Positions 3,439 to 10,532 of a DNA stretch of 12,779 nucleotides are shown here, piece after piece (the first letter of the stretch is position 1; each line of letters starts with the position of its first letter). The DNA lies in contig CALCPB010000482.1 of NCBI GenBank assembly GCA_937897665.1, positions 1 through 12,779 of the forward strand, read 5' to 3'. The notes under the pieces were generated by a model. That model was not told the origin of the DNA. It ran no database searches and was given only the letters and a program-made list of their open reading frames with translations. This DNA comes from an uncultured Halomicronema sp. (GTDB lineage: Bacteria; Cyanobacteriota; Cyanobacteriia; Phormidesmidales; Phormidesmidaceae). A program made the translations under genes and the position numbers.

Positions 3439-4162
3439 AGAACTTCAAGGATTAAGTTTTCGGGAGACTTGTAAAACTGCGTATTTACACTCATGCACTC
3501 TGTTAAGGAAAATCTAACGAACTTCTATGTTTTCCCCAGTGCTAATTGAGGTGTTTTGAACAAATTTGCGGGATCTTTGCATTCGCATGAAGCTTTCATG
3601 AAGCTAATGCGATGGTCTTCGAGGGGAAACTGTTGGGTTGCTCAAGCACTTGATGTTTTGAGCGATCGCCGCCGCTGCTGTTGATGCGGAGTGGAGCTTT
3701 TGGGGTCAGGCATGACGGATAGATTGCCAGCCTGCACCGGGGGCTTAATCTCTGATCTTGTGCTCAGTAGCCGTTAATACCGGTTCTCAATTACGAAGTA
3801 ATTTCTGTGGCAAGACGAAATAACCCCAGAACTCGGGACGCCCAAAGTAGCGTGGTCTCGCAGAAGGGTGGTCAGCACTGCGATCGCTCACAGATGCCCT
3901 AAATCGCCGCCAGGAGGGTGGGTTGGGTAAGCTGCCGTACTTTATCAAGCCTCCGCCCAGTGGCTGATGCGTTTTGCTCAACAAGCTGCGGGCATCGTTT
4001 GTCTGGTCGCGTGACCCCCAGACCGTTTGTGCGGCCAGGAGACGGGCGCGGTGATTCTCGCAACAGCGTGGGACACGTCATGGCAGCCGGGCACATTAAT
4101 AGCGCCTATGGTTTGCGCTGTATGAACAGACCCTAGAGAGTTAAGAGCTGCCATCACTCGTT
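3439..4162. other. 724-bp gene-free region upstream of the TIR locus
   Basis: Several short open frames exist on both strands (for example 3918-4136 + and 3899-4096 -), but they overlap one another, are rich in Arg, Pro and Ser, and look like chance frames. Two HIP1 palindromes lie near 3662 and 3881. The segment must carry the promoters for the leftward sugar transferase and the rightward TIR gene, but I could not pick a convincing -35/-10 pair. An imperfect dyad with internal direct repeat is listed at 3579-3610. A small hairpin (AGCGC paired with GCGCT, around 4100-4120) lies about 45 bases before the TIR start. Confidence 0.5.
3579..3610. repeat. Imperfect dyad with nested direct repeat
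   Basis: GCATT at 3579-3583 pairs with AATGC at 3606-3610. Inside lies CATGAA/TTCATG around a short centre, and the octamer ATGAAGCT occurs twice, three bases apart. The element sits about 140 bases upstream of the sugar transferase start and could be an operator, but there is no independent support for a regulator. Confidence 0.3.
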
Positions 4163-4738
4163 ATGAATCTGCTGAAAGATGTCTTTATTTCTAACGGACG
4201 GGCCGACAGCCGAGAATTCGCCCAACACCTGTGCAATCGCTTGACCGAGGCTGGCTACACCGTTTGGTTTGACTACAACGACATTCCTCCCGGCAAAGAC
4301 TATCAGCTGCGCATTAATGACGGCATCGCCAAAGCCGACAACTTTCTGTTTATCATTTCGCCCCACGCGACTAACTCGGCCTATTGTCGCAAAGAGATCG
4401 ACCTCGCGATTGCGCTCAACAAGCGCCTAGTGCCGATCATGCACGTTGAGCAGATCAGCAAAGAAACTTGGCAGCAGCGTCATCGCCACAGCCGCGAGGC
4501 CGACTGGCAGGCTTATCAAGCGACGGGCAAGCATTCTTGTTTTACGCATCTACATCCTGAACTGGCCAAAATCAACTGGAACCAGGTGAGCTTTCAATCT
4601 GGCATCAATGATTTTGAGCAGTCATTTCAGGCCCTGGTCGGGCTCTTTGAGCAGCAGCGAGACGTGGTGCATCAACATACGGTGTTGCTCACACGGGCGC
4701 TGACATGGGAGCAGCAGCATCGGAAAACGCCGTCGTAA
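4163..4738 (+). CDS. TIR-domain protein (N-terminal part of a split or interrupted TIR-WD40 protein)
   Basis: TIR domains of bacteria commonly cleave NAD+ or make signalling nucleotides from it. Residues 4-95 form the TIR fold: DVFIS (6-10), VWFDYNDIPPG (34-44, the BB loop), FLFIISP (61-67) and SAYCRKEIDLA (72-82), where E78 is at the position of the catalytic glutamate of NADase TIRs such as SARM1. Residues 92-165 are an extended segment (ETWQQRH, FTHLHPELAKINW) that I recall following the first TIR in related cyanobacterial proteins. From residue 172 a linker begins (HTVLLTRALTWEQQHR) that stops abruptly at a TAA. The same linker recurs twice, complete, in the next gene, and its missing second half is encoded in frame immediately after this stop. 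I therefore judge this as the front end of a longer protein ended by a nonsense codon, though a genuine separate TIR subunit is possible. There is no clear Shine-Dalgarno at the ATG. Confidence 0.85.
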   Translation: MNLLKDVFISNGRADSREFAQHLCNRLTEAGYTVWFDYNDIPPGKDYQLRINDGIAKADNFLFIISPHATNSAYCRKEIDLAIALNKRLVPIMHVEQISKETWQQRHRHSREADWQAYQATGKHSCFTHLHPELAKINWNQVSFQSGINDFEQSFQALVGLFEQQRDVVHQHTVLLTRALTWEQQHRKTPS

Positions 4739-4741
4739 CGG

Positions 4742-7700
4742 GTGGGTGATGCCTGCCGCCAGGGGATAGATTGGCTACAGGCTCGCTTTCAAGACCGGCA
4801 GTCTCCTGGCCAACCGACCGATCTGCAGTGTGAGTTTATTGCCGAGAGCCTCAAGAATGCCAAAAACTTGATGACTCAAGTGTTTTTGGCTTACGCCGAA
4901 ACCGATCGCGCGGTGATGGAGCCGGTGCGCCGCTCTCTGTGGCGAGCCGGTATCACCGTCTGGACCAATACGACTGACCTGCAACCCGGAGCCGACTTCC
5001 CCCAAGCCATCCTGCAGGGGATTGAGCAGGCAGACAACCTGGTTTATTTGCTCTCCCCGGCCTCGCTCGAATCATCCTACTGTCAGCGAGAACTTAGCTA
5101 CGCGATCGCCCTCAACAAACGCATCATTCCCATCTTGGTGAGTCCGGTCGAGGCGGCCACCTGCCCGCCAGAGTTGAGTGACTTGCACTATATCGACCTC
5201 ACTGGTAACCCGCAGGTTGGTGATTATCAGGCTGACGAGAGCGAACTGCTGCGGATTTTGCAGACCGACGATGAATATTATCAAACCCACAAACTGCTGC
5301 TGGTGCAGGCGCTGAAATGGAAGCAGCAGCACCGCAACCCCAGCATTTTGCTACGGGGCTATAATCTGCGACAGGCGGACATTTGGCTCAAAACGGCGCA
5401 GACGCGCAGCCAGCACCTGCCCACCCCCCTGCAGGCCGATTTGATCGAGGAAAGTCTGCGGCAACCGCCGCCCAGTTCCTTAGATGTCTTCATTTCGTAT
5501 TCCCGCGCTGATGCTGACTTTGCGCGGCAACTGAACGACACCCTGCAGATTTACGGCAAGCTGACCTGGTTTGACCAAGAAAGCATCGCCAATGCCAGCG
5601 CTGACTTTAAGACCGAAATTCGGCGGGGCATTGAAGTTTCCAACAACTTTGTGTTCATTTTGTCGCCGCGCTCTGTGCAGTCGCGCTACTGCGCTGAGGA
5701 GGTGGAATATGCTGCAAAGCTCAACAAGCGCTTCATCACGATTCTGCATCAGCCTATCGATCTAGAGGGTTTGCATCCTGCCTTGGCCCAGGTGCAGTGG
5801 CTCGATTTTACCCCAGCTGAGCGCGACTTTTGGGAAGATTTTAACCAGCTGGTGCGCGTACTTGAAACCGATCGCGAATATCTGCAGAGTCACACCAAAT
5901 GGTCGCAGCAGGCAATCGAATGGCAGCAGTTGCAGCAGAGCCCAGACTTGCTACTGCGGGGCAGCGAGTTTGCGATCGCCGAAGCCTGGCTGCAAGCCGC
6001 GATCAAGGAGCATAAGCAGCCCGCACCGACTGAGCTGCAGGTGAACTACATTGAAGCGAGCCAAGCCGCAATTGCCGCAGAGGTGCGTCAAGAGCAGCGG
6101 CAGCGGGTCATCTTGCGATCGCTGCTGGGCATCATGACCACCGTTGCCCTGGTGGCAGCAGGCACTGGCGTCTGGGCTTCCCACAGTCGTCGCCAGGCGA
6201 TCAAGAGTGAAATTCAAGCTCTCGCGGCCTCCTCAGAGGCGCAATTTATTACAGGCCAATCTTTTGATGCCTTGGTGACCGCCCTCAAAGCCGAAGACCG
6301 CCTGCGCGGTGCGCATTGGTTAGCTCACGACCGTCCCCTGCACGATCGCGTCACAACCGCCTTACAACAAGCGGTTTATCTGGGACGCGAAATTCATCGG
6401 CTCGAAGACTTTGAGCGCCTTGTCAGTGTGGCTAAATTTAGCCCCGATGGTCAGACGCTGATCACCGTTGATGAAGAACAGATCAAACTCTGGACGCCCG
6501 ATGGCCAACGTCTGAAAAATGCCGCTGGTTTACCCATCGCACCGCTCGAACATGCCGGTCAATTCAATAGCGTTGTATTCACCGCCGATAGTCGAGCGCT
6601 AATAATGAGCGGTTGGGATCCCGTTTCGGGTCAACCCTCAATCCAACGGTGGGATTTGGCAGGCAATGCCCTGCCGACACTGTCCTCAGAGACTACATGG
6701 CAGTGGATTGCTCCTAGCCCCGATGGCCAAACCATTGCGACATCGGATGGCAATAGTATTCGACTCTGGCACCCCGATGGCACCCTGCGCACAGACTTGC
6801 CCAATAGTGCCGCTGTCGGCTGGTTGAGCAGCTTAAGCGAATTGGGACAAAACGGCTTTAGTGAAGACGGGCAAACGCTCGTGGTTTTTGAGGGCGATCG
6901 CCAATTAGTGAAGCTATGGCGACTTGACGGTACCTATCAAGAATTTGTCGTCCCTGACGAGTTGCAGTATCGGGCGCTCAGCCCCGATGGCTCTAGGCTG
7001 ATCTTTTCTGGCGATGACCAACTGCAGGTTTATCAGCCCGACGGCACTCAGCAGGTCACCTTGGCACAGAGTCAGCTGCCCCAAAATGCCACGCTAGGCA
7101 CAGTCGTCTTGAGCGCTGATGGCCATATTGCTGCTAGCTACACCTTTAATCAAGCCAATCGTGGCCCCTTCGTCCGGCTTTGGAACCCCGAGGGCGATCT
7201 CATCGCTGCTCTCGACGGTCATGATGCCTTCATCAGTACCATGAAGTTCAGCCCCGATGGGCAACTGTTGGCGACTGCCAGGTATGACAAAACGGTCAAA
7301 CTGTGGCGCTTAGATGGCACGCTGGTCGACGATCTGCCCGGTCATGCCGACTGGATCAACAGCCTAGATTTCAGGCCGGATGGGGCGGTCTTGGCCACAG
7401 GCAGCTACGATGCGACCCTGCGCCTCTGGAGTGTTGATGTCAATCTGGCTAAAAGCACCCAAGTTGACCAGCACTTTGTAAACCCAGACCAAACGCAATT
7501 TGTCACAGGCATGACGAATGGACCGGTCAAACTTTGGCAGGCAGATGGTAGTCCCATCGCAACCCTAACCGAGCAAAATGCTGGAGTCGTGAATGCAAAC
7601 TGGAGCGCTGACGGCAGCACCCTGGTCACGACGGCTCAGCAGGCTCCGGTCTCTTTTGGGCCGGTGCAGTTGTGGAGCGCTGACGGCCAGCGGCAAGCCA

Positions 7701-9130
7701 CCCTGATTGAGCAAACCGAGACGACCCCAAAAGATACGACAAGCGAGCTAGTGACTCGCATCAGCTCCGATGGTCAGCGCATTATTACGATCGCTCAAAC
7801 CCCAGAAACCTATGGCCCCGCCCGGCTCTGGACCCAGGACGGGCAGTTACTCGCCACGTTGATTGAGCCCCTGCCCAAAGCCGAGGGCTACACTGAAAAC
7901 CACCATTATCACAATGCGATTGCCTTTACCGGCGATGGCCAGGCGATTGTTACCCAACCCGAAGGGGTGGAGGGGGATGGCCCCGTGCAGCTGTGGAATA
8001 TTGACGGTGACCCCATCACGACCCTCATTGCTCCGATGATGCGAGCCGAGGCAGCCGCTGAAGCGGCTTATGTCGGCAGACAGGTATTCAGCAGCGAATC
8101 AGGCAGTACCCTCGTCACTCTGCCATATACCTCAGAGATCTACGGCCCTGTCGAGCTTTGGGATAGCAGCGGCCAGAAGCAGGCAACCTTAGTGGAGGCG
8201 ATCGCGATCGCCGACGATGAAGAGAGAAGTTCAACCTGGATTGACGTTAAGCTCAGCCCTGATGGTGAAACGATCTCGACTGTGGTGAGATCACCCCAAA
8301 ATCCTGGCCTTGTTCAGCTTTGGGACGCTCAGGGACAGGCCATCGCCACCCTCATGGCAATTGAGGAAATGGCTGAAGAAGACGATATCAACGTCTTATT
8401 CACCTTCAGTCCCACGGGTGATACGTTTGTCACCCAACAATATTCTTCAACCACTTATGGGCCGGTGCAACTGTGGCGTCAGAACGGCGAACTCATCGCC
8501 ACCCTGATTGAACCGATGGCTAAATCTGAGGATGAGGCCCAACAAGCCATCGATATCCGGTTCGGTGAAGATGGCCAAACTCTCATCACGACCGTTCCCA
8601 ATGGAGCCGTTCAACGCTGGCAGACCGAAACTGGCACCCTGATTAATACGGTGATGTCCAGTCTCGATTCGAGCAACCCTTGGGGCCTGATCGTCAGCCC
8701 CGATGAAACGTTGTTAGCCGTACCCATCGGGGCCAAGACCTACGAAATTTGGGACGTGGAAGGGCAGCGATTGAGAACAATTCAAGGGGATGGGGATGCT
8801 ACAGCGCCGCAATTCAGTGCTGATAGCCAAATGTTTGTGGTGGGTAACTATGACAATCGGGTCAGACTTTGGCACCGTGACCAGAGCAGCTTGATTACCC
8901 TAGGGGGCCATGAATCGCCACCCACGAGCTTGTTTTTTGCCCCCGACAGTACCCAGCTCGCCTCAGCGGATAATCGCCAACTGATTTTGCATCAGCTTGA
9001 TGGTCTTACGGATTTAGATAACTTGGTGCAGATGGGGTGTGAGCGAGTCGCGACGCATATCTTGCATAGCGCCGAATTCGGCGAGGGCGATCGCCCACTT
9101 TGCCAAACCGTACTCTCTGCAGGGCAATAA
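4742..9130 (+). CDS. Two-TIR, membrane-anchored WD40 repeat protein
   Basis: A 1462-residue receptor-like protein. Domains: second half of a linker module (1-38); TIR (45-165) with SSYCQREL, putative catalytic E117; complete linker (182-240); TIR (247-375) with SRYCAEEV, putative catalytic E320; complete linker (383-445); one hydrophobic helix (about 458-480) flanked by basic residues; a helical stretch (485-550); about 19 WD40-like repeats (555-1420) recognisable by SPDG and LW motifs; and a C-terminal cap (1421-1462) with MGCERV and GDRPLC, typical of cyanobacterial WD40 proteins. The WD40 part should form two or three beta-propellers that sense or scaffold, with the TIRs as effectors. The GTG at 4742 is the first in-frame start after the upstream TAA but has no ribosome site; ATG 4871, just before the TIR, is an alternative. 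Translation may instead continue from 4163 in the same frame. Partners and trigger are unknown; a role in phage defence or regulated cell death is inference from the family. Confidence 0.9.
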   Translation: MGDACRQGIDWLQARFQDRQSPGQPTDLQCEFIAESLKNAKNLMTQVFLAYAETDRAVMEPVRRSLWRAGITVWTNTTDLQPGADFPQAILQGIEQADNLVYLLSPASLESSYCQRELSYAIALNKRIIPILVSPVEAATCPPELSDLHYIDLTGNPQVGDYQADESELLRILQTDDEYYQTHKLLLVQALKWKQQHRNPSILLRGYNLRQADIWLKTAQTRSQHLPTPLQADLIEESLRQPPPSSLDVFISYSRADADFARQLNDTLQIYGKLTWFDQESIANASADFKTEIRRGIEVSNNFVFILSPRSVQSRYCAEEVEYAAKLNKRFITILHQPIDLEGLHPALAQVQWLDFTPAERDFWEDFNQLVRVLETDREYLQSHTKWSQQAIEWQQLQQSPDLLLRGSEFAIAEAWLQAAIKEHKQPAPTELQVNYIEASQAAIAAEVRQEQRQRVILRSLLGIMTTVALVAAGTGVWASHSRRQAIKSEIQALAASSEAQFITGQSFDALVTALKAEDRLRGAHWLAHDRPLHDRVTTALQQAVYLGREIHRLEDFERLVSVAKFSPDGQTLITVDEEQIKLWTPDGQRLKNAAGLPIAPLEHAGQFNSVVFTADSRALIMSGWDPVSGQPSIQRWDLAGNALPTLSSETTWQWIAPSPDGQTIATSDGNSIRLWHPDGTLRTDLPNSAAVGWLSSLSELGQNGFSEDGQTLVVFEGDRQLVKLWRLDGTYQEFVVPDELQYRALSPDGSRLIFSGDDQLQVYQPDGTQQVTLAQSQLPQNATLGTVVLSADGHIAASYTFNQANRGPFVRLWNPEGDLIAALDGHDAFISTMKFSPDGQLLATARYDKTVKLWRLDGTLVDDLPGHADWINSLDFRPDGAVLATGSYDATLRLWSVDVNLAKSTQVDQHFVNPDQTQFVTGMTNGPVKLWQADGSPIATLTEQNAGVVNANWSADGSTLVTTAQQAPVSFGPVQLWSADGQRQATLIEQTETTPKDTTSELVTRISSDGQRIITIAQTPETYGPARLWTQDGQLLATLIEPLPKAEGYTENHHYHNAIAFTGDGQAIVTQPEGVEGDGPVQLWNIDGDPITTLIAPMMRAEAAAEAAYVGRQVFSSESGSTLVTLPYTSEIYGPVELWDSSGQKQATLVEAIAIADDEERSSTWIDVKLSPDGETISTVVRSPQNPGLVQLWDAQGQAIATLMAIEEMAEEDDINVLFTFSPTGDTFVTQQYSSTTYGPVQLWRQNGELIATLIEPMAKSEDEAQQAIDIRFGEDGQTLITTVPNGAVQRWQTETGTLINTVMSSLDSSNPWGLIVSPDETLLAVPIGAKTYEIWDVEGQRLRTIQGDGDATAPQFSADSQMFVVGNYDNRVRLWHRDQSSLITLGGHESPPTSLFFAPDSTQLASADNRQLILHQLDGLTDLDNLVQMGCERVATHILHSAEFGEGDRPLCQTVLSAGQ
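7520..8622 (+). repeat. Eight divergent WD-like repeats with GPVQLW signature
   Basis: Within the WD40 region, eight successive units carry a GPVQLW-like motif, often followed by a DG turn and the string ATLIE. The motif glycines fall at residues 927, 973, 1025, 1080, 1135, 1189, 1240 and 1288, a spacing of 46-55 residues, longer than the 40-43 of ordinary WD40 blades. Between units are acidic insertions instead of the usual Gly-His. Six of the eight begin GP. The best-conserved units are 973, 1080 and 1240. Confidence 0.75.
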
Positions 9131-9173
9131 AGAGAAGGGGCGGCGATGACAGTGCTGATCGTCACAACGAAGA

Positions 9174-9199
9174 AAGGTTCCGGCAAGCCCCGAAACCTT
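9174..9199. terminator. Possible hairpin terminator after the TIR-WD40 gene
   Basis: Bases 9174-9183 pair with 9190-9199 through a ten-base stem with one mismatch and a six-base loop, 43 bases past the TIR-WD40 stop. No U-run follows, so factor-independent termination is uncertain. The next gene is convergent, so a terminator is expected about here. Confidence 0.4.
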
Positions 9200-9261
9200 G
9201 CAACTACACCTTATTGCACTCCCTAAAGTTCTGTCTCGCGAGCAGGGAATGATCGGCTAGA

Positions 9262-9618
9262 TTAGCGCCAAGTGCGCTCGCCCTCTTCGTTGACGCGGGC
9301 CTGACGAATCACATCTGAAATTTCTTCGGCATCATCGACATGGTGTAGAGCTTTCTGTCCTTCTTCAGGATCGTCCACCACAAAATAAGTGGGTACTACG
9401 ACGCGATCGCCCGTAATATCAGCAGTGTCAACGGCAACCTGCTGCGCCTTCTCTTCCACTGACTTCTCGGGGTGGCGTACATCGCCGGGGTTCAGGGGTT
9501 GGTCACTATGCTCAAGGACTTCTCGGTGGGCCGCCTTTTGTTCCGGAGACACCTCCTCAGGCGTCAGTGGCTGTCGAATTTTCTGCCCGTCCTCTTTAGA
9601 GTGTTGTTGAGTATCCAT
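9262..9618 (-). CDS. Small highly charged protein, function unknown
   Basis: I do not recognise this 118-residue protein. It is strongly hydrophilic and acidic, has no cysteine, no signal peptide and no membrane segment, and its first 60 residues are rich in Glu, Gln, Pro, Lys and His, suggesting a disordered N-terminal half. A more ordered part (about 60-110) contains DRVVVPTYFVVDDPEEG (71-87) and EEISDVIRQARV (97-108), which could be a short strand-helix unit. It is probably cytoplasmic. The start is well supported: ATG at 9618 is preceded by AAGAGG with six bases of spacing, the best ribosome site in the window. It converges on the TIR-WD40 gene and lies between that gene's 3' end and a displaced near-copy of the same 3' end, so it may have arrived by insertion or rearrangement. 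Confidence 0.75.
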   Translation of the reverse strand: MDTQQHSKEDGQKIRQPLTPEEVSPEQKAAHREVLEHSDQPLNPGDVRHPEKSVEEKAQQVAVDTADITGDRVVVPTYFVVDDPEEGQKALHHVDDAEEISDVIRQARVNEEGERTWR

Positions 9619-10046
9619 ATATGACCTCTTCTCTTACTGCTACAGCCAGCTTAAAAGCCATCCTGGTTTGACTACATCGCTCTGCAGGGTCACATTTCGG
9701 CGCGGCGACTCACCCAAAAGCCAGAAGTTTCCCTACTGCGTTTGGGCCAGGGAAATGCCTTAACAGCGATCACCCTGATGTTCACTGCAGACGTCACGAC
9801 ACCCATGAGAAATTAGGCCCCGACAGTAATCGACTGGGGGTAGACCTTAGCTTTTCCGAGAACATTCATAACCAAAAAGTTGAAACGAAGCGATCGCTCA
9901 CTTTGCCAAAACGGACTCTCTGAATTAAGAGATTTAGGCATAGAGCACTGCGACTGCCGTGTCGTTGGCCATCATTGAGCCGTCGCAAATAGCCCAGAGT
10001 ACATACTCATCAACCTTTGCGGGCTTGTTGGTGTACCTTGGGGCCT
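9619..10046. other. 428-bp intergenic region with rearrangement debris
   Basis: No complete gene is present. A small hairpin pairs 9728-9734 with 9749-9755. A 33-base near-copy of the TIR-WD40 3' end occupies 9890-9922. On the minus strand the frame from about 10056 down to a TAA at 9934-9936 reads as protein-like sequence (including VDEYVLWAICDGSMM) but has no start codon upstream of two internal methionines. Together these suggest remnants of lost genes. Confidence 0.5.
9890..9922 (+). pseudogene. Remnant of a WD40 gene 3' end
   Basis: Thirty of 33 bases match 9087-9119, the last part of the TIR-WD40 gene, 803 bases away. The match starts at a HIP1 site (common by itself), but 22 of the 25 bases beyond it also agree. 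In the corresponding frame the remnant encodes SDRSLCQNGLS against GDRPLCQTVLS in the intact gene, the conserved C-terminal motif of cyanobacterial WD40 proteins. Upstream similarity fades at once, so only the tail survives. Confidence 0.6.
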
Positions 10047-10532
10047 TTATCCAGCGTCATCTTTGGCCGTAACTGGAATGTCAAAGTGCAGTACTTCTGT
10101 GCGAATTCCCAGCTTCGTATAAAGCGCGATCGCCGGTGCATCTTCCCTATCTGCCTGCACATAGATCACCGAGGCGGCCCGCGCTGCGGCAATCGTTTTG
10201 AGTTTTTGGATCAACGCTGTTGCAATCCCCTCACGTCGGTGTGCTGCGGCCACCGCCAGATCATAGATATAGATTTCGCTGCGCTCTTGCTCAAACTTTT
10301 GCAGTTCGTAGGCGGCGATGCCGCCAACTACCGAGCCCTGCTTTAAGGCGGCCAGAGCAATGAAAGAATCGCTGGCGAGTAAGCGCTTGAGATAGCGCTG
10401 GCTGGGACGAGCCGCTGTATAGGTTGCCTCATCCTCGAACGCTGCGCCGAAGGTGGTCATCATGTCTGCCATCAGCGCCCAGTCTTCAGCGGTCAGCCTA
10501 CGAATACTGAAGGGAGAAGATAAAAATGACAT
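10047..10532 (-). CDS. GNAT acetyltransferase, aminoglycoside AAC(3)-I-like
   Basis: A 161-residue GCN5-related N-acetyltransferase, likely cytoplasmic. It matches the AAC(3)-I group, which acetylates the 3-amino group of gentamicin-type aminoglycosides using acetyl-CoA. Shared stretches, compared from memory with AAC(3)-Ia, are FIALAA (57-62), [15 protein letters not shown] (80-94), [11 protein letters not shown] (98-108), VIYVQAD (122-128) and ALYTKLGIR (136-144) followed by EVLHFDI (146-152). The RREGIA loop (99-104) is the acetyl-CoA pyrophosphate-binding site. Length equals the family norm. The ATG at 10532 has no clear Shine-Dalgarno. No integron, attC site or transposase is near, so this looks like a resident chromosomal homologue; its natural substrate may not be an antibiotic. 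It is transcribed away from the next gene, across a 160-bp divergent spacer. Confidence 0.9.

Follow-up and report, generated by a model that had tools for sequence, protein, structure and literature searches.

The window, i.e. the whole 12,779-nt stretch of DNA analysed here, carries on its forward strand a gene for a protein with three TIR domains and WD40 repeats whose reading frame is interrupted by an in-frame TAA (4736–4738). This stop is located in the first of three repeated linkers, between an ORF of 191 aa with a single TIR domain and an ORF of 1462 aa encoding TIR-TIR-WD40. The original prediction of an interrupted three-TIR-WD40 gene is upheld by a near-identical relative in which the frame is unbroken. 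Instead of a new coding trick, the interruption most likely reflects either an ordinary loss of function or an error in the sequence; between the two, we lean toward a real and recent disabling change in linker 1 that was accompanied by decay of the TIR1 module.

ORF1 (4163–4738, + strand) encodes TIR1 and the beginning of linker 1 and is terminated by the TAA, while ORF2 (4742–9130, +) comprises the remaining part of linker 1, TIR2, linker 2, TIR3, linker 3, a hydrophobic helix and the WD40 part. The coordinates bear out the earlier statement that both lie in the same frame, separated by nothing but the TAA and one CGG codon (4739–4741), which is followed by GTG (4742–4744) and a Gly codon (4745–4747). 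Likewise, linker 1 read through the stop was confirmed to give a gap-free alignment to linkers 2 and 3 in which Gly 195 and Trp 204 keep their register. Two in-frame TIR-family ORFs that share a conserved linker are, on this sequence comparison, far beyond chance, but the window copy does not run through linker 1 as a single open reading frame, being broken by the TAA.

Pfam searches identified TIR_2 once in ORF1 (E 2.2e-24) and as two stretches in ORF2, with WD40 repeats following; scores for the PF13676 family were 86.7 bits for ORF1 and 182 bits over the two ORF2 stretches, at a cut-off of 28. In TIR1 (4181–4456, +), Glu 78 (4394–4396) aligns with the Glu of solved bacterial TIR proteins, and we take this aligned residue to be catalytic. 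A Glu at the catalytic-type position of TIR NADases is present in TIR1 by alignment, and by a matching motif only in TIR2 (4880–5230, +; Glu at 5090–5092) and TIR3 (5486–5854, +; Glu at 5699–5701). Further downstream, a likely membrane helix (6107–6178, +; best 19-residue Kyte-Doolittle window 1.93) precedes the WD40/beta-propeller matches (6896–8986, +; ORF2 residues about 719–1415). An AlphaFold2 model of ORF2 residues 1–473 (mean pLDDT 84.8, pTM 0.70, 31 sequences) has helical modules following the TIR domains, and TIR domains were the top matches when this model was compared with the PDB by Foldseek. For linker 2, helices were modelled at ORF2 residues 177–195, 206–220 and 229–240, and for the part of linker 1 beyond the stop at residues 2–15 (low confidence, block means of 63 and 66) and 27–40. 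By the linker 2 pattern, the stop would be placed between helices 1 and 2 of a three-helix linker 1.

Searching the database with the read-through translation (X at the stop) retrieved P0045, which is 1653 aa long, originates from the MAG ‘Cyanobacteria bacterium J06626_4’ and represents a cluster of 8 member sequences (longest contig 48.6 kb). P0045 is identical to the window read-through at 1599 of 1645 positions (97%) and unbroken through linker 1; in G005, a member of the same genus, the frame is continuous as well. Such continuous proteins in cyanobacterial relatives were what the original prediction had led us to expect. In our survey of the class, based on matches of E 1e-60 or better with match rows counted by hand, 55 of 388 genomes yielded 113 matches, all spanning the stop position; these are matches and not separate genes, as some proteins contribute two of them, and scoring was limited to five candidates per genome. 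A stop at linker 1 was found in one of the 113 matches from the 388 genomes, namely in the window itself, with the other 112 lacking it, and a stop at any position in two (the window and G274:C18, where it lies inside TIR1), although these counts could miss copies with a change of frame. Judged from these matches, the interruption is not a family feature. Two separately conserved genes in relatives, a finding that would have spoken against an interrupted gene, were not encountered, as P0045 is fused and the 112 other matches are free of a stop here. The combination of an intact near relative with an interruption seen in a single match is consistent with a pseudogene or nonsense allele.

Three other family copies that we read from DNA are broken as well, each at a different place. 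G274:C18 contains a TGA in TIR1 and changes frame further downstream (L129, G274:C18:1-7000), which makes its three-TIR gene a probable pseudogene; G030:C33 has a change of frame within TIR2; and in G026:C65 the match ends after TIR1. The database further holds short proteins (P0002, P0003, P0007 and P0008) that, by eye, follow TIR1 and diverge from the family within linker 1 or no later than where TIR2 begins. These are possibly other broken copies. Three of them, P0002, P0003 and P0008, had suggested a break hotspot in linker 1; they come from a search that took only proteins of 0.55–1.75 times the query length, and we neither claim nor reject such a hotspot, the broken copies read from DNA being broken elsewhere. 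As a side observation, many related multi-TIR proteins (P0066, P0069, P0073 and others) carry PF05226 (CHASE2) and no WD40 matches; going by their domains, they are a sister architecture of tandem TIRs. The number of TIR matches per genome also varies: the window's genome has 6, some others in the family have dozens (46 in G020).

The residues around the stop were compared with the columns of homologues P0046–P0163 (from the best 120 listed of 1357), anchored to P0045. Filtering for coverage and identity removed 8 of these 118 proteins; the remaining 110 were picked by high score against a continuous query and are hence a non-random sample. The stop column is Leu in 110/110 homologues, substantiating the earlier assignment of the TAA to a conserved Leu, and the next column, Arg in the window, is Leu in 109/110. 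The proposal that a single TTA to TAA change had created the stop falls short: P0045 has other residues at five of the ten codons around and including it (4724–4753, +; residues 188, 191, 192, 193 and 197), and the second Leu of the linker is gone too. Within TIR1, residue 11 is Asn (AAC, 4193–4195, +), where all 110 homologues and P0045 have Tyr, and residue 108 is Arg (CGC, 4484–4486, +), a position at which Pro is found in P0045 and in 103 of 105 homologues. As several linker and TIR1 residues were lost together, the linker change was not one clean substitution. At residue 180, it is the window rather than P0045 that carries the usual residue (102/110).

At the level of protein, i.e. counting replacement differences, the window deviates from P0045 at 6 of 184 positions in residues 1–184, at 6 of 48 in 185–232, at 3 of 423 in 233–655 and at 31 of 990 in 656–1645. 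TIR1 plus linker 1 (residues 1–232, 12/232) is thus more divergent than residues 233–655 (Fisher P 0.0005), and this also applies when the linker patch is omitted (residues 1–186, 6/186; Fisher P 0.027). Differences cluster at the stop, with 5 in 15 residues (P 0.019). Compared with the WD40 part (residues 656–1645, 31/990), on the other hand, residues 1–186 are no more divergent (6/186; Fisher P 1.0). For this reason we argue TIR1 decay from which residues have changed, not from their rate of change.

The following scenario would account for these observations. The normal, ancestral state would be a continuous, membrane-anchored cyanobacterial protein with three TIR domains and WD40 repeats, whose gene was recently interrupted in the window strain by a disabling change in linker 1. 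Ribosomes beginning at the normal start would then produce TIR1 plus about one helix only, little or no TIR2-TIR3-WD40 part would arise through chance reinitiation, and the TIR1 module, freed of its role, would be starting to lose invariant residues. Here we infer that the base calls are correct and that ORF2 expression is lost or low. In favour of this scenario are the continuity of P0045 and G005, the confinement of the stop to one match, the near-invariant state of the four altered columns, the excess of differences in TIR1 plus linker 1 over residues 233–655, the modelled position of the stop between helices, and the three other family copies broken at other places. Against it stand the unremarkable divergence of TIR1 outside the linker relative to the WD40 part, the usual residue at position 180 of the window, and the type of nucleotide change discussed below.

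Translation signals add little. In the 20 nt preceding GTG 4742, a search for ten SD-like strings turned up only GGA at −20, in line with the earlier remark that no ribosome site precedes this codon. The remark stands as an observation, but the missing site is weak evidence for lost ORF2 expression, because the ORF1 start (4163) has no SD-like string nearby either and an in-frame GTG at 4925, inside TIR2, is preceded by GGAG at −7. None was found before ATG 4871. A shortened ORF2 product from an internal start, for example GTG 4925, may still be made. A scan for internal promoters between 3900 and 5000 was uninformative (0 found versus 0.7 expected by chance).

Four options had originally been listed, of which a recent nonsense mutation and a base-call error remain, whereas readthrough and a coupled split gained no support, the stop being non-conserved and the RNA beyond it showing no folding in excess of shuffles (z 0.51). 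In the case of a natural split, TIR1 would be a working 191-aa protein of its own and ORF2 would be expressed from GTG 4742 through coupled reinitiation or from a later start. The distance of only 3 nt between the ORF1 stop and GTG 4742, the aligned Glu retained in TIR1, the continued conservation of residues 233–655 and a cut that is predicted to fall between helices are all compatible with this idea, as is GTG 4925 with its GGAG, although starting there truncates TIR2. The short TIR1 proteins P0002, P0003 and P0008, which by eye leave the family in or soon after linker 1, could be cited here as well, but they stem from the length-restricted search. In addition, TIR1 has lost the invariant Y11 and P108, the near-identical P0045 is fused, and no near-identical separate ORF1 protein was found among the matches listed, the best of which covers 98% of the query at 59% identity (identities reach 65% where a shorter part is matched). 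We thus regard a working split as improbable, and a little more so its particular version in which a recent split left free TIR1 plus a TIR2-TIR3-WD40 remainder made by reinitiation, so that the protein would be two-part in one strain and one chain in its relative. Programmed readthrough of the TAA, producing a regulated amount of the joined protein, would make sense of the frame and spacing preserved across the stop. Yet neither the stop nor its context is conserved (one in 113 matches, absent from P0045), folding of the 100 nt that begin with the stop does not exceed that of shuffled sequences (it is matched or surpassed by 143 of 200 shuffles), and the neighbouring near-invariant Leu was lost as well; we give readthrough hardly any credence.

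A sequence error deserves more weight, though we still hold it to be the less likely of the two remaining explanations: a patch of poor consensus at about 4193–4753 in a fragmented assembly would have created the stop and the odd residues, and the real gene would be continuous. The genome (G000), 90% complete, is split into 1047 contigs, and the differences from P0045 cluster at the stop and strike invariant columns. In residues 1–197, moreover, all 10 of 10 single-step differences from P0045 are transversions, versus 12 of 35 elsewhere (Fisher P 0.0002; the boundary was chosen post hoc and one mixed two-step difference was dropped), and a run test on transversions that needs no chosen boundary gave P 0.0048. 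Under neutral change at kappa 2, ten of ten transversions has a P of 0.0036. This is not the pattern expected of neutral decay, and it hints at poor sequence. We nevertheless refrained from taking the skew as proof of error after inspecting, as a control, the AAC(3)-I-like gene (10047–10532, − strand), whose replacement differences from the close relative G002 comprise 19 transversions and 10 transitions and include a run of 7. Its replacement differences lie at both ends, residues 57–142 being identical. Since P0164, which is identical to the window protein through residue 129 and differs at the C-terminal end, shares the N-terminal differences (residues 4–56), these are natural; by hand count, 5 of 7 single-step differences among them are transversions, which is less extreme than ten of ten. 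Judging by this protein, a milder transversion skew is natural on the window contig.

Further points argue against an error. The patch has no indels relative to P0045, and no second version of 3900–5000 was found in the genome bin. When the remaining five ORFs (leuA-like, a 133-aa ORF, sugar-transferase-like, a 98-aa ORF and glgB-like) were set against G002, runs were 1–3 long and no additional stop interrupted the aligned frame; the leuA-, sugar-transferase- and glgB-like genes have few replacement differences. A local double frameshift in the patch (shifted reading V-V-T-G) was set aside by eye, and a diversity-generating retroelement was put aside too, as the differences are scattered across about 560 nt in the 5’ part of the gene and affect bases other than adenine.

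Homology to G002 ends on the left flank at window position 3934 and resumes on the right at 10047, there on another contig. For the intervening stretch (about 3935–10046), which holds the TIR-WD40 gene, we found no counterpart beside the matching flanks in G002, the flanks lying on two contigs; the best TIR match in G002 is distant (E 1.1e-38). By this comparison, 3935–10046 looks like a variable locus. In the E 1e-60 survey, which included five further members of the genus, G001, G004 and G005 have matches and G002 and G003 do not; being present in three of five, the gene itself looks accessory.

Taken at face value, the window copy represents a single allele, broken or miscalled, of a large and variable cyanobacterial TIR-WD40 family. 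Annotation of the window genome would report two separate genes here, whereas the close relatives have one continuous gene, which calls for caution. Should the stop be real, the window strain and its near-identical relative would constitute a natural test of what the first TIR domain contributes.

As for function, TIR domains have been described as cleaving NAD and acting as effectors in conflict and cell-death systems (PMC7159879, PMC8195603). When the gene was scanned with PADLOC, matches to ThsB, Ago-TIR and other models fell into the TIR regions. The TIR-WD40 protein may act in immunity or cell death as an effector of the TIR NADase type, with the WD40 part as the sensor that gates it. In the parts seen of PMC10907252, PMC3501461, PMC7517822, PMC7159879 and PMC8195603, we found no description of a three-TIR-WD40 protein or of a stop in linker 1, by which we do not claim absence from print.

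Among known proteins, the solved bacterial TIR proteins (PDB 3h16, 7uxr and 8g83, AbTIR) match TIR1 in sequence, with the Glu aligned; the window gene, known from sequence, differs in having three tandem TIRs ahead of a hydrophobic helix and WD40 repeats. G274:C18, G030:C33 and G026:C65 represent the same kind of gene and are also interrupted, but not at linker 1. The continuous cyanobacterial three-TIR-WD40 proteins P0045 and P0107 have the same domain order and linkers, whereas the window copy has acquired a stop and no longer has certain invariant residues in linker 1 and TIR1.
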